From Buttiauxella sp. B2 (GTDB taxonomy: Bacteria; Pseudomonadota; Gammaproteobacteria; Enterobacterales; Enterobacteriaceae): 64,000 nucleotides of DNA. The first letter of the stretch is position 1. Each line of letters starts with the position of its first letter. The notes beneath the pieces are model-generated. The model ran no database searches, was not told where the DNA came from, and was given only the letters and a program-made list of their open reading frames with translations. Where the stretch lies: positions 1 to 64,000 of the forward strand of contig NZ_VEXQ01000014.1 of the NCBI RefSeq assembly GCF_006376615.1, read 5' to 3'. This document shows, one piece after another, positions 12,900-23,127 of the stretch. A program made the translations under genes and the position numbers.

Positions 12900-14051
12900 G
12901 TGAAGATGAAATTACCTCCTTTTATCGAGATTTACCGCGCATTGATCGCCACGCCATCCATCAGCGCCACCGACAGCGCGTTGGATCAGAGCAATGAGTC
13001 TTTAATCAATTTACTGGCTGGATGGTTCCGCGACCTTGGATTTAACGTCGAAATACAGCCAGTACCGGGTACACGCAATAAATTCAATATGTTGGCGAGC
13101 ACTGGTAATGGTGCTGGCGGGCTATTGCTTGCGGGCCATACCGACACCGTGCCGTTTGACGATGGCCGCTGGACGCGCGACCCCTTCACGCTGACCGAGC
13201 ACGAAAATAAGTTGTACGGCCTCGGCACCGCCGATATGAAAGGCTTCTTTGCGTTTATTCTCGATTCGCTGCGCGATGTGGATGTCTCCACACTGAAAAA
13301 GCCACTCTATATTCTGGCGACGGCTGATGAAGAAACGACGATGGCGGGTGCGCGTTATTTCTCTGAAACCACAAGTTTACGCCCGGACTGCGCCATCATC
13401 GGCGAACCGACCTCATTACAGCCAGTACGCGCTCATAAAGGTCATATTTCAAATGCGATTCGCATTCTTGGGCAATCTGGCCATTCAAGCGATCCTGCTC
13501 GAGGCGTAAACGCCATCGAACTAATGCACGATGCCATCGGCCATATCATGTCGCTGAAAAACACGCTGAAAGACCGCTATCACCACGATGCCTTCACCGT
13601 GCCGTATCCGACGCTGAACCTCGGACATATCAGTGGTGGCGATGCTGCAAACCGTATTTGTGCCTGCTGTGAACTGCATATGGATATTCGTCCGTTGCCA
13701 GGTCTGACGTTAAATGATCTGAACGGTTTACTTAACGAAGCGTTAGAACCTGTTAGCCAGCGCTGGCCAGGCCGTCTGACGATTTCTGAACTGCACCCGC
13801 CAATTCCAGGTTATGAATGCGCCAAAGACCATCAGCTAGTGCAAGTAGTCGAAAAATTACTGGGTGCCCAGACTGAAGTGGTGAACTACTGCACCGAAGC
13901 GCCATTTATTCAGACTATTTGCCCAACGTTAGTCCTGGGGCCAGGTTCAATAAACCAGGCACATCAGCCCGACGAATACATCGAAACACGTTTTATCGAA
14001 CCAACTCGCAAACTGATAACGCAAGTAGTGCATCATTTTTGTTGGCATTGA
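12900..14051 (+). CDS. argE: Acetylornithine deacetylase ArgE
   Basis: Zinc metallopeptidase-like enzyme (M20 family) that releases ornithine from N-acetylornithine. It has 383 residues if started at the GTG at 12900, the E. coli length; an ATG two codons later is an alternative. Metal-site motifs are seen: [14 protein letters not shown] near 78, GTADMKGF near 110, [12 protein letters not shown] near 143 and GEPTS near 169. It is transcribed divergently from argC across the ARG boxes and followed by a terminator. Confidence 0.96.
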
Positions 14052-14063
14052 AAATAGCGATTC

Positions 14064-14084
14064 AGGGGGTTTTGCCCCCTTTTT
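14064..14084 (+). terminator. Terminator after argE
   Basis: AGGGGG/CCCCCT stem with a short loop and a T5 run, 13 bp after the argE stop codon. Confidence 0.85.
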
Positions 14085-14288
14085 AAGCTGCTTTTTAGCG
14101 GATCATCATAAGAAACGCTTATCCACGAAGTTAGTAATTAAATTTCATGAATTAGCGTAATTTATTCGTTTGCTGAAACGATTTCGTAGCAATTGACGAA
14201 CGATGACTTACGTGGCTTTATAAAGACGGTGTTGAACCTTCACGGGTGAAATTAAGTTACATAAAAAGATGGGGTGTCTGGGACTATA

Positions 14289-16940
14289 ATGAACGAACAA
14301 TATTCCGCTTTGCGAAGTAATGTCAGTATGCTCGGCAAGTTGCTCGGGGATACCATCAAGGATGCGTTAGGTGAAAACATTCTTGACCGCGTAGAAACAA
14401 TCCGCAAATTGTCTAAGTCCTCGCGGGCAGGCAATGAAGCAAATCGTCAGGAATTGCTGACCACGTTACAGAACCTGTCTAACGACGAACTGCTCCCAGT
14501 AGCCCGTGCATTCAGCCAATTCCTGAACCTGGCCAACACCGCCGAGCAATATCACAGTATTTCCGCAAATGGCGAAGCCGCCAGCAATCCTGAAGTTATC
14601 GCTAAGACACTCCAAAAATTAAAAAATCAGCCGGATATTAGCGAAGCCGCCATTCGTGATGCTGTTGAGTCTTTGTCACTGGAATTAGTGCTGACCGCAC
14701 ACCCAACCGAAATTACCCGTCGCACCCTGATTCACAAATTGGTTGAAGTAAATAGCTGTCTGAAGCAGCTCGACCATAGCGATATCGCCGATTACGAGCG
14801 CAACCAAATTATGCGCCGCCTGCGCCAACTGGTGGCTCAGGCCTGGCACACTGACGAAATTCGTAAAAACCGCCCTTCCCCAGTTGATGAAGCGAAATGG
14901 GGTTTTGCAGTGGTTGAAAACAGCCTGTGGGAAGGTGTTCCGAACTACCTGCGCGAGCTGAATGAACAACTCGAAGACAATCTAAATTACAAACTGCCGG
15001 TCGATTTTGTTCCGGTGCGTTTCACTTCATGGATGGGTGGCGACCGCGACGGTAACCCAAATGTTACCGCTGATATCACTCGCCACGTTCTATTACTCAG
15101 CCGCTGGAAAGCAACTGATCTGTTCCTGAGAGATATTCAGGTGCTAATTTCCGAGCTTTCAATGGTGGAATGCACACCAGAACTGAGCGAACTGGCCGGC
15201 CCTGATGCTTCACAAGAACCGTACCGCTGCATTATGAAAGGCATTCGTCAGCAATTATTGGCGACCCAGGCGTGGCTTGAAGCGCGTTTGAAAGGCCAAC
15301 GTCTGCCAAAACCAGAAGGTTTGTTAACGCAAAACGAACAGCTTTGGGATCCTCTATATGCGTGTTACCAGTCGCTTCAAGCTTGCGGAATGGGCATTAT
15401 CGCCAACGGTCAGTTGCTCGATACCCTGCGCCGAGTGAAAAGTTTTGGTGTACCGTTAGTCCGCATCGATGTTCGCCAGGAAAGTACACGCCACACCGAA
15501 GCATTGGGTGAAATGACTCGCTATCTGGGCATTGGCGATTACGAAAGCTGGTCTGAAGCTGACAAGCAAGCCTTCCTGATCCGCGAATTAAACTCCAAAC
15601 GTCCCTTGCTGCCACGCCAGTGGGAGCCAAGCGAAACCACTCGCGAAGTGCTGGAAACCTGTAAAGTCGTTGCCGAAGCGCCGCGTGGATCTATCGCTGC
15701 CTATGTTATTTCAATGGCGAAGACCCCCTCTGACGTACTGGCTGTGCACTTGTTGCTGAAAGAAGCAGGCTGCACCTTTGCCCTGCCTGTTGCTCCGCTG
15801 TTTGAAACACTCGACGACCTGAACAATGCCGATGACGTAATGACTCAGTTGCTGAATATCGACTGGTATCGCGGCTTTATTCAGGGCAAACAGATGGTCA
15901 TGATTGGCTATTCTGACTCGGCGAAAGATGCAGGCGTAATGGCAGCTTCCTGGGCACAGTATCAAGCCCAGGACGCGCTGATAAAAACCTGTGAGAAAGC
16001 CGGGATTACGCTGACGCTATTCCACGGACGCGGTGGTTCTATCGGCCGTGGTGGCGCGCCTGCGCACGCAGCTCTGCTTTCACAACCGCCAGGAAGCCTG
16101 AAAGGTGGTCTGCGTGTGACTGAGCAAGGCGAAATGATCCGCTTTAAATACGGTCTGCCAGAAATCACCATCAGCAGCCTGTCGCTTTATACCAGCGCGA
16201 TTCTGGAAGCTAACCTGCTGCCACCACCAGAGCCGAAGAAAGAGTGGAAACATATCATGGAGGAGCTGTCTGTTATCTCCTGCGATATGTACCGCGGCTA
16301 TGTCCGCGAAAACAAAGACTTTGTGCCGTATTTCCGTTCAGCAACACCAGAACAAGAGCTAGCTAAGCTGCCGCTCGGCTCGCGCCCGGCAAAACGTCGC
16401 GCTAGTGGTGGTGTTGAGTCACTGCGTGCCATCCCATGGATTTTCGCCTGGACGCAAAACCGCCTGATGCTGCCAGCGTGGCTGGGGGCCGGTGCCGCGC
16501 TGCAGAAAGTAGTGGAAGATGGCAAACAGGACGAGCTGGAAACTATGTGCCGTGACTGGCCGTTCTTCTCCACCCGCCTTGGCATGCTGGAAATGGTATT
16601 TGCAAAAGCCGACTTGTGGCTTGCGGAATATTACGATCAGCGCCTGGTGAAACCAGAGTTGTGGAAACTTGGCACACAACTGCGCAACCAACTGGATGCG
16701 GATATCAAAGTCGTACTGGATATTGCCAACGACTCGCATCTTATGGCCGACCTGCCATGGATTGCCGAGTCCATCCAGTTGCGTAACATCTACACTGACC
16801 CGTTAAACGTCTTGCAAGCTGAATTACTGCATCGTTCGCGCCAGTCTGAAGAGAACGGTGAAGAACCTAACGCTCAGGTTGAACAAGCGCTAATGGTCAC
16901 CATTGCAGGTGTTGCAGCGGGTATGCGTAACACGGGTTAA
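14289..16940 (+). CDS. ppc: Phosphoenolpyruvate carboxylase Ppc
   Basis: Anaplerotic enzyme that carboxylates PEP to oxaloacetate for the TCA cycle. It starts at [12 protein letters not shown] and has 883 residues, exactly the E. coli length; an in-frame extension five codons upstream was rejected. Catalytic His in [13 protein letters not shown] near 138, the [11 protein letters not shown] loop near 579-589 and the C-terminal MRNTG are all intact. About 235 bp of promoter region separates it from argE. Confidence 0.98.
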
Positions 16941-16960
16941 GAGATAAAACGCCCATTCAA

Positions 16961-16983
16961 ACCCCGCATCTGCGGGGTTTTTT
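16961..16983 (+). terminator. Terminator after ppc
   Basis: CCCCGCA-TC-TGCGGGG-type stem followed by T6, 20 bp after the ppc stop. Confidence 0.88.
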
Positions 16984-17055
16984 GTTTTTGCTCATGCGCA
17001 TTGGAGCTTCAATGTGGCAGGATAAAACATCCTGATTAACCCGCTGTGGTGCAAT

Positions 17056-17916
17056 ATGAATGACGACGTAAGCCAAATCCTTTCTCGCCTGCTCAACAGC
17101 CCATCGGGCGTTCAACACGTCTGGTTTGCAGATAATCAGCTTGCCCCTTCGGAACTTGCTTATCAGGTTGATTTCCCGCGTCTGGAAGTGGTGCTGGATG
17201 GCGTGCTGATGGACGCCTGTGACGCAGGCATGCCCGCAAGGCTTGAACAATACGACGTGCTATATGTCCCGATGAAATGCTGGAACAACCCGCAGTGGAA
17301 TACGCCCGTTACCACGCTGAGCATATTATTTGGCAAACAGCAGTTGGGATTTAGCGTCCTGCACTGGGATGGAACGGTGTTTAAAACACTGGGCAAACAG
17401 AATGTCGCCCGCCGTGGGCCACGCATTGGCTCCTTCCTGCTTCAGGCTCTTAACGAACTGGTGATGCAGCCTCGCGATCAACAAACGGCACGGTTTATCG
17501 TCAGCAGCATACTAAGCCATTGTACTGACCTGCTCGGCAGCCAGATCCAGACCGCTTCACGGAGTCAGGCACTATTCGACGCAATTCGTGAGTATATCGA
17601 CGTAAGATATGGCGAACAGCTTACCAGGGAATCAGTCGCGCAGGCCTTTTACATCTCACCAAACTACCTTTCTCATCTCTTCCAGAAAACCGGTGCGATA
17701 GGTTTTAACGAATACCTGAATTACACCCGTCTGGAGCATGCCAAAACATTGCTTAAACGCTACGATCTAAAGGTGAAAGAAGTGGCGCACGCTTGTGGGT
17801 TTGTCGATAGCAATTACTTTTGCCGTCTGTTCAGGAAAAATACCGAGAGATCGCCATCAGAGTACCGCCGCCAGTACCATAGCCAACTAACAGAAAAGGC
17901 TCTCACCCCAGAATAA
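17056..17916 (+). CDS. yijO: AraC-family regulator YijO
   Basis: Predicted transcription factor of 286 residues (283 in E. coli). The C-terminal third has the double helix-turn-helix of AraC/XylS proteins (TRESVAQAFYISPNYLSHLF near 190-210 and KVKEVAHACGFVDSNYFCRLF near 240-260). The N-terminal domain is of unknown ligand specificity. It sits next to the frw/pfl genes in E. coli and could regulate them, but this is not established. Here its 3' end overlaps frwD by 14 bp. Most of that neighbouring locus is gone, so its original target may be missing. Confidence 0.92.
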   Translation: MNDDVSQILSRLLNSPSGVQHVWFADNQLAPSELAYQVDFPRLEVVLDGVLMDACDAGMPARLEQYDVLYVPMKCWNNPQWNTPVTTLSILFGKQQLGFSVLHWDGTVFKTLGKQNVARRGPRIGSFLLQALNELVMQPRDQQTARFIVSSILSHCTDLLGSQIQTASRSQALFDAIREYIDVRYGEQLTRESVAQAFYISPNYLSHLFQKTGAIGFNEYLNYTRLEHAKTLLKRYDLKVKEVAHACGFVDSNYFCRLFRKNTERSPSEYRRQYHSQLTEKALTPE

Positions 17917-18247
17917 TATGAGTATCCTGTGGAGTACCAAAAATGCGTCGCACCGCAGACATCACCTTTTGCGGCTCACGAAGAAACGCATTGATGCTCG
18001 ACTGAACACATCGGCAATGCGCGAAACGCTCGGCACCAGACAGCTCAATGTCGGTGATTAATAACACCACATCGGCGTGCATTATATCCGCAAGCGTTAA
18101 CTCATTCTCAATACCCAGCGCGCCCTGCGTTTCAATTTTGACCAACCATTTCTCTTGCTGGCAGAGTTTATCAAGACGCTCTGCCGCCATATAAGTGTGA
18201 GCGACACCGCTGACACATGCCGTCACTGCAACCAGATGTCGTGTCAT
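17903..18247 (-). CDS. frwD: PTS fructose-like EIIB component FrwD
   Basis: Small cytoplasmic EIIB-type phosphocarrier of 114 residues, similar throughout to E. coli FrwD. The phospho-accepting cysteine is in TACVSGVAHTYMAAERL (about residues 8-24). The ATG at 18247, preceded by AGGGTGAAGG, is chosen over an upstream in-frame TTG. It is intact, but the EIIC (frwC), second EIIB (frwB) and EI/HPr-like (ptsA) partners expected next to it are absent from this window because of the deletion at about 19004-19011. It starts 21 bp after the pflC remnant stop and would be cotranscribed with it if any promoter remained. Confidence 0.9.
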   Translation of the reverse strand: MTRHLVAVTACVSGVAHTYMAAERLDKLCQQEKWLVKIETQGALGIENELTLADIMHADVVLLITDIELSGAERFAHCRCVQSSINAFLREPQKVMSAVRRIFGTPQDTHIILG

Positions 18248-18268
18248 TCCCTTCACCCTCAATGAAAA

Positions 18269-19011
18269 CTAGCCGCCAATAGTAACGTCAAAACCTGCAT
18301 CTTCAGCCATCTGGCGAAACTGCATGATTTCCGCCTCGCTCGGGGGAGCAATACCCGCCATTCGCCAGGGCTTATCAAGCAATTGATACTTTGGCTCACC
18401 ATACTGATGGAATGGTAATAAATGCAGTTCAGTTAACTTCAATGGTGCCAGAAACTCAAGAATCGCCCGCATATTACCGGTATCTAATGTGTAGCCCGGA
18501 ATGAGCGGGACTCGCGGTATAACATGGAGTCCTGCAGCCGCAAGCATCATGAAGTTTTTCAACACCCTCGGTTGATTGATATTGAGTATGGATCTTGCCT
18601 TTGCACTATCCATCATCTTCAGATCGAAAAGCACTTCATTACACTGCTGCGCCACCGCCAACAATTTATCGGGCGCCGCGTCACCAGCCGTTTCAATCGC
18701 AGTACGAATACCCAACGATTTTAATCGTTTTAAAAAACGGGCCGCAAATTCCGCCTGCATCAGCACTTCTCCACCGGAAAGCGTCACTCCGCCGCCCGAT
18801 ACACGGAAAAACACCTCGTCTTTAAGCACCTCCGTTTCAAGCTCACGGAAGGTGACATCACGGCCAACGTTTTCCAACGCTCTGGAAGGGCACTCATCCA
18901 CATCGTTCAGGCAGGTGGCGCAATGCAGGCACTTTGCCTCACGCCGTACGGTTTCGACCTTCCCGAAGATCGACTCCGGGTTAGCACACCACGAGCAATG
19001 ATGCGTGCAGC
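18269..19011 (-). pseudogene. pflC: pflC, 5'-truncated glycyl-radical-enzyme activase
   Basis: Radical-SAM activating enzyme for the pyruvate formate-lyase-like PflD. Homology begins abruptly at the radical-SAM cluster motif [12 protein letters not shown] (CX3CX2C) and continues to a normal C-terminus. It covers the ferredoxin-like cysteines CLHCATC, the SGGGVTLSGGEVLMQ segment and LLPFHQYGEPKY. About the first 30 residues of the family, including the DGxGIRT segment, are missing. Upstream sequence in this frame is antisense gldA and the apparent extension there is meaningless. Without its start and promoter it is almost surely non-functional. The body is otherwise undecayed, so the truncation looks recent. 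Confidence 0.88.
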
Positions 19012-19740
19012 GCGCTGTCGGTGATTTATACCGATGATGGTGAATTCGACCATTATCTGATGCTGCCACATAATCCGAATATGGTCATTGTTGACACCAA
19101 AATCGTTGCCGAAGCACCGGCGCGTTTGTTGGCGGCCGGTATTGGCGACGCGATGGCAACCTGGTTTGAAGCCCGGGCCTGCTCACGTAGCGGTGCCACC
19201 ACCATGGCGGGTGGCAAATGCACACAAGCAGCACTGGCACTGGCTCAACTGTGCTACAACACGCTGATTGAGGAAGGTGAAAAAGCGATGTTGGCGGCAG
19301 AGCAACACGTGGTGACGCCTGCTCTTGAACGTATTGTTGAAGCCAATACCTACCTGAGCGGCGTAGGCTTTGAGAGCGGTGGCTTGGCGGCAGCCCACGC
19401 TATTCACAACGGCTTAACTACCATCCCGGATGCGCATCACTACTATCATGGCGAGAAAGTGGCATTCGGAACGCTCACTCAACTGGTACTGGAAAATGCA
19501 CCGGTCGAAGAGATAGAAACCGTTGCAGCGCTGTGCCATAGCGTCGGTCTGCCTATCACACTGGCACAGCTGGATATCAAAGATGATATCCCGGCGAAAA
19601 TGCGCATCGTTGCCGAAGCATCCTGTGCCGAAGGCGAAACTATTCACAATATGCCTGGCGGAGCAGATGCCGATCGCGTCTATGCTGCGCTGTTAGTCGC
19701 CGACCAGTACGGCCAACGCCTTCTGCAAGCCTGGGAATAA
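19006..19740 (+). pseudogene. gldA: gldA, 5'-truncated glycerol dehydrogenase
   Basis: C-terminal two thirds of NAD-dependent glycerol dehydrogenase. It begins at the [15 protein letters not shown] position (about residue 127 of the 367-residue family) and runs to the normal end QAWE. The catalytic domain is intact, with the zinc-binding [11 protein letters not shown] aspartate and the histidines in HAIHNGLT and [11 protein letters not shown]. The N-terminal Rossmann NAD-binding domain with the GGGKTLDTAK motif is gone, so the product cannot be a working dehydrogenase. A GTG at 19021 could in principle start translation but has no convincing ribosome binding site. It is fused head to head with the pflC remnant. 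Confidence 0.9.
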
Positions 19741-19750
19741 TAGCCATAAT

Positions 19751-19778
19751 AAAATCCCCGCATTCACGCGGGGATTTT
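19751..19778. terminator. Bidirectional terminator between gldA remnant and katG
   Basis: AAAATCCCCGC-ATTCAC-GCGGGGATTTT: a near-perfect palindrome with T/A runs on both sides, between two converging genes. Confidence 0.88.
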
Positions 19779-19794
19779 CAGGTCCGATAGCGGA

Positions 19795-23127
<3,333 letters not shown>

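Follow-up and report, generated by a model that had tools for sequence, protein, structure and literature searches.

In the window, as we call the whole 64,000-nt stretch of Buttiauxella sp. B2 DNA analyzed here, the 3' parts of pflC and gldA are joined directly to each other. This scar was very probably left by a recent spontaneous chromosomal deletion of approximately 7.7 kb with one endpoint in pflC and the other in gldA, i.e. by an ordinary kind of gene loss in an enterobacterial chromosome.

Organization of the locus

The left flank of the scar is formed by an intact ppc gene, encoding phosphoenolpyruvate carboxylase (14274..16940, plus strand; NCBIfam PRK00009, 1216 bits; 86-89% nucleotide identity to eight congeners), which is followed by an intrinsic terminator at 16959..16980 (plus strand). 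Further downstream, an intact gene for an AraC-type regulator (17056..17916, plus strand) shared 88-92% amino-acid identity with seven congeners and matched AraC-family NCBIfam profiles, all below cut-off; based on the E. coli gene order, we take it to be yijO. On the minus strand, a complete frwD gene encodes a fructose-like PTS IIB protein (17903..18247; PRK10427, 199 bits for a cut-off of 153), no longer linked to frwB and frwC or to the operon's 5' end.

The 3' part of pflC (18269..19003, minus strand), also recognized by blastn, scored 405.5 bits against the PflC-type activase profile PRK10076, thus passing the cut-off of 326, yet only over positions 47-292 of 292, so that it does not represent a full-length activase with its N-terminus. 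This remnant begins just past the first Cys of the CxxxCxxC motif and the codon that follows it, and these codons lie inside the junction tract, CGTGCAGC (19004..19011). The 3' part of gldA (19012..19740, plus strand) covers residues ~126-367, its first ~123 codons being gone; it aligned with positions 123-364 of the 365-position NF047954 profile with 494.7 bits, below the equivalog cut-off of 700. Neither remnant contains an internal stop codon. A first-pass annotation of this DNA had described these coordinates, frames, and gene identities, as well as the absence of stops, and PRK10076, NF047954, and blastn agree with it; it had correctly seen gldA as truncated but placed the start of similarity at residue 127, whereas it lies at residue 123-124 of an intact relative.

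A hairpin with A/T flanks, likely a terminator, is located 3' of gldA (19751..19778, plus strand); it was read directly in the sequence and was absent from the scan listing. The right flank is formed by an intact gene (19795..21975, minus strand), alignable in congeners, which we presume to be katG. This gene was 92% identical to its counterpart in congener G008 and 84-87% identical to those of seven other congeners, and ppc displayed no such kinship. The GC content of the window was 49.8%.

Ancestral arrangement and extent of the loss

The genus was represented by 12 genomes, one per species. In seven of these (G002, G003, G004, G005, G009, G010, and G011), pflC and gldA were found together in the interval that separates ppc from katG. 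Gene order was read ORF by ORF in G009 (locus L091), and the other six intact congeners were covered by the layout of their two blastn blocks. In L091, gldA, fsaB, and ptsA are on one strand and frwC, frwB, pflD, pflC, and frwD on the opposite one, followed by yijO; these names are presumptive and were assigned by protein resemblance and E. coli order.

When the window was compared with L091 by blastn, positions 14001-19011 aligned with 18838-13829 and positions 19004-22500 with 6093-2606. The two blocks overlap by exactly 19004-19011 and lie approximately 7743 bp apart in G009, with no inserted bases in the window. Two collinear blocks meeting at 19004-19011, and separated by 7.7-7.9 kb, were obtained with all seven congeners that have the cluster, in line with the 7-8 kb initially estimated. 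The genes pflD, frwB, frwC, ptsA, and fsaB are entirely gone from the window, and pflC has lost its 5' part and gldA its 5' third; the five complete genes had been named as missing from knowledge of E. coli, and all were observed as ORFs of L091. With an intact arrangement in close relatives and a direct join without inserted DNA, the locus shows two of the features expected of a short-homology deletion scar.

Searched for with up to three mismatches in 295 sampled genomes of the family, including 4 of the 12 from the genus, a 34-mer spanning the junction was found only in the genome from which the window comes. No alignment of the remaining 11 congeners extended across the junction. As far as these genomes indicate, the junction would be specific to the window's species; an ancient junction shared throughout the genus, a possibility raised earlier, does not agree with its presence in 1 of 12 congeneric genomes and 1 of the 295.

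Used as a DNA query against the window's own genome, the lost 7.8 kb had no close copy elsewhere in the assembly; the search returned one fsa paralogue (67% nucleotide and 71% amino-acid identity), which remains in this genome, and three matches of 69-95 bp. A protein search with full-length GldA returned the remnant and, beyond it, a single 28% match (E = 6e-4). The hypothesis that the lost genes had moved elsewhere in the genome was rejected on the basis of these searches, in which pflD, frwB, frwC, and ptsA were sought as DNA and GldA was also sought as a protein. At megablast sensitivity, no match to the window was found in complete genomes of E. coli, a result that is uninformative because of divergence.

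The junction tract

In the window, CGTGCAGC reads as Gly-Cys-Thr in pflC, giving a C-T-H frame, as the first-pass annotation had proposed when it interpreted the tract as an 8-bp microhomology. However, the 37 intact PflC orthologues included in the comparison, drawn from this genus and from others, all have K-G-C-P-H, with a Pro after the first Cys. On the plus strand, the Pro codons give a G at position 19006, whereas gldA and the window have a T. Because Pro is invariant in the 37 intact orthologues, T19006 most likely derives from gldA. Judging from these alignments, the crossover most likely occurred at 19004-19005 (CG), adjoining the GCAGC that is common to both sites past the mismatch, and the ancestral repeat was most likely of 7 of 8 bp, of which only CG (2 bp) was contiguous at the crossover. 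A perfect ancestral 8-mer would be possible if the lineage had undergone an earlier Pro to Thr change.

Over these 8 bp, the pflC and gldA sites matched at seven positions in G009 and G005, at five in G002 and G010, and at four in G003, G004, and G011. The perfect 8-mer, whose presence at both breakpoints had been proposed as a check, was seen at the gldA site in two further genera besides G009 and G005. At the pflC site, it was absent from all 13 pflC-carrying relatives that were compared. To put a figure on chance, 200,000 random crossovers were drawn between the pflC and gldA genes of G009: at least 7 of 8 positions matched across the crossing in 0.27% of cases and 8 of 8 in 0.015%, while 16% had at least 2 bp of contiguous identity. 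A 7-of-8 match is unlikely by chance (0.0027) and fits an ordinary short-homology deletion; pairing through short homology is nevertheless not proven, because the perfect core is probably 2 bp, a length reached by 16% of random crossovers.

Age of the event and selection on the remnants

A custom two-ratio codon model was used to compare omega on the window branch with the background. Values were 0.085 versus 0.093 for pflC, 0.036 versus 0.039 for gldA, and 0.085 versus 0.050 for frwD (2dL 0.89), without any significant rise in dN/dS of the remnants. Among the intact neighbours, omega was 0.062 versus 0.056 for yijO and was raised for katG (0.095 versus 0.052; 2dL 5.14); intact genes therefore vary too. 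The low branch values imply that the remnants were under selection for almost all of their branch.

Limits on the time since the event were calculated on the assumption that the remnants now evolve freely. The presence of zero stops in 600 codons (three frames) limits neutral change, at the 95% level, to approximately 0.05 substitutions per site. For gldA, the profile passes 2dL 3.84 between a fixed omega of 0.05 (neutral part 0.006) and 0.10 (0.029), corresponding by interpolation to a limit of approximately 0.015 neutral substitutions per site, for a branch dS of approximately 0.63; the pflC and frwD profiles permit neutral time up to about 0.045-0.05. The locus thus resembles a recent pseudogene, with no stops and a dN/dS that is not yet raised, and the recent age first proposed is in keeping with the gldA limit. 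On the other hand, at the 80 columns that are invariant in the other 37 PflC sequences (junction Pro excluded), the window sequence departs five times, the most among the 38 sequences; the others show 0-4 departures, mostly 0 or 1. Its pflC end branch is also the longest in the genus (0.39, followed by 0.25 for G009). These observations may mean that selection has been relaxed for some time after the event, or that the event is older, and a fair reading is that the event is recent, not brand-new.

The low identity of the window PflC to those of seven congeners (72-77% of amino acids) was also considered as the product of decay alone. This was rejected, since the congeners differ nearly as much among themselves (mean identity of 79.6%, minimum of 73.8%) and the branch omega is not raised.

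Losses of the cluster in related species

The complete frw-pfl-gldA cluster was missing in 5 of the 12 species of the genus, with four different end structures (the window at 16941-19780 and loci L120, L121, L122, and L123). As in the window, the cluster was lost between ppc and katG in G008, G006, G007, and G001; the remaining pieces differ. G008 lacks everything from yijO to fsaB but keeps a whole gldA and a 43-residue tail of fsaB (49% identity). In G006 and G007, all cluster genes are gone, and intervals of 68 and 58 bp, each containing one terminator-like hairpin, separate the coding ends of ppc and katG. G001 likewise retains none of the cluster genes; its interval measures 81 bp and contains a hairpin that differs from that of G006 and G007. 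The losses in G006, G007, and G008 start near the counterpart of the terminator that follows ppc, and in G006 and G007 the loss has its right end close to a counterpart of the hairpin at 19751..19778. The window retains yijO, frwD, and the tail of pflC, all lost in G008, and lacks the 5' part of gldA, which G008 kept; deletion alone can therefore not have turned either state into the other.

When intact and lost states were mapped onto flanking-gene trees, four changes were needed without katG and three with katG; the deep branches of these trees are weakly resolved, and the two trees place the window differently. Recurrent loss of the cluster is well supported. In most intact congeners, similar GC-rich hairpins were observed after ppc and after gldA, and G006 and G007 retain a single one; these hairpins might have acted as direct repeats in the losses of G006 and G007.

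Elsewhere in the family, pflC-type genes were found apart from the ppc and gldA locus in L045 and L071, which are one-piece Kluyvera records, and on other contigs in L041-L043 and L048; the position and content of the cluster therefore vary across the family.

Alternative explanations

The explanations weighed against a recent deletion are not mutually exclusive, and the likelihoods given to them need not add up to one. A chimeric read or misjoin could have brought the two ends together while the intact cluster is really present, and the assembly does consist of 75 contigs. However, the junction is internal to a 118,938-bp contig, the remnant stretch has a single match in its own genome, and the DNA search did not find the lost 7.8 kb elsewhere in the assembly; in addition, the overlaps usual in assembly are far longer than the 8 bp shared here. 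We therefore regard an artefact as improbable. Slightly more improbable is an older event after which the truncated PflC and GldA frames were still expressed and kept by selection. The stop-free frames and low branch omegas would suit it, as would the pflC frame, open up to a GTG at 19069 and including all three cluster cysteines, and one promoter-like match at 19046-19074 (plus strand). Nevertheless, the N-terminal third of GldA is missing, as is the start of PflC, the two promoter-like matches in 16900-19850 compare with 2.6 expected in shuffled sequences, and recent loss predicts the same low omega. As for a transposon or IS that inserted and took the genes out on its exit, the direct join of the two blocks, with no extra bases, makes this scarcely credible.

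The ancestry of gldA bears on another route to a deletion, overlapping with the favoured one, in which a foreign 3' fragment of gldA recombined by homology downstream and was joined illegitimately to pflC, with deletion of the intervening genes. The nucleotide identity of the window gldA reached 82-83% with Kluyvera genomosp. 3, Klebsiella grimontii, Pseudocitrobacter, and G020, compared with 76.4-78.8% for eight congeners. A single clade of the window and the eight gldA sequences of the genus was rejected (p-AU 0.0025), as was a clade with five of them (p = 0.000259), and identity to G008 jumps from 74-79% within gldA to 93-95% directly 3' of it. Placed outside the genus in this way, the window gldA, as one partner in the join, has a history that a plain deletion leaves unexplained and that would allow for recombination either ahead of the deletion event or in the course of it. 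On the other hand, the gldA genes of other outside genera (G013, G028, Enterobacter soli, and kpr-6; 71-78%) were no nearer than those of congeners, a grouping with G008, G010, and G011 was not rejected (p-AU 0.1), and the placement with Pseudocitrobacter and G020 was not strong (support 90/75). Furthermore, the eight gldA sequences of the genus were not themselves recovered as one group, although such a group was not rejected (p 0.19-0.20); a replacement of gldA could thus long predate the deletion, or the jump in identity could reflect an exchange of katG. On balance, this route is about as improbable as an assembly artefact.

Discussion

The favoured explanation, a recent deletion between pflC and gldA, would most simply involve slippage or strand annealing, without RecA, between short and imperfectly matched repeat copies (7 of 8 bp). 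Such an event would take out the 5' part of pflC, pflD, frwB, frwC, ptsA, fsaB, and the 5' third of gldA, and loss of the cluster in one step would be the simplest reading. With the middle of two divergent operons removed, the 3' ends face apart, presumably without a native promoter as judged from gene order, and the remnants would no longer be functional. RecA-independent deletion between short direct repeats has been observed in E. coli K12, according to a portion of PMC5426353. In the part of "Selection-Driven Gene Loss in Bacteria" drawn on here (PMC3386194), 19 of 30 sequenced spontaneous Salmonella deletions had end homologies of 6-15 bp and the other 11 had either no homology or at most 4 bp, so that the window event fits known deletions either way. 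As described there, the short-homology deletions resemble it in being multi-kb, in ending at a short repeat, in occurring in an enterobacterium, and in being plausibly RecA-independent. Unlike them, the window event is natural, not laboratory-selected, and its repeat probably matched at 7 of 8 positions, the perfect core being 2 bp long. Our literature search found no paper naming this scar.

FrwD is left without operon partners, and yijO perhaps without targets. The excerpted text of PMC6643234 places E. coli fsaB in one operon with gldA and ptsA, the same grouping as in the intact congeners, whereas in the window yijO, frwD, and two truncated genes are all that is left. As that text describes the role of this operon as not clear, we can only infer a phenotype, namely less anaerobic use of glycerol, dihydroxyacetone, or propanediol.

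The deletion itself is ordinary; its value lies in a rough date, a junction resolved to the base, and a genus in which the cluster is not complete in 5 of 12 species, with different endpoints. Tentatively, the scar may be one of at least four separate frw-pfl-gldA losses in one genus, with structurally different endpoints. The ppc-katG interval might then be a natural replicate series for the selected loss of an anaerobic sugar, glycyl-radical, and glycerol pathway, with the window's species caught shortly after the event, and the foreign-looking gldA may mean that recombination with other genera took part. The losses within this genus make it possible to ask whether the cluster disappears neutrally or because its loss is favoured, and which functions the frw-pfl-fsaB-gldA genes serve.
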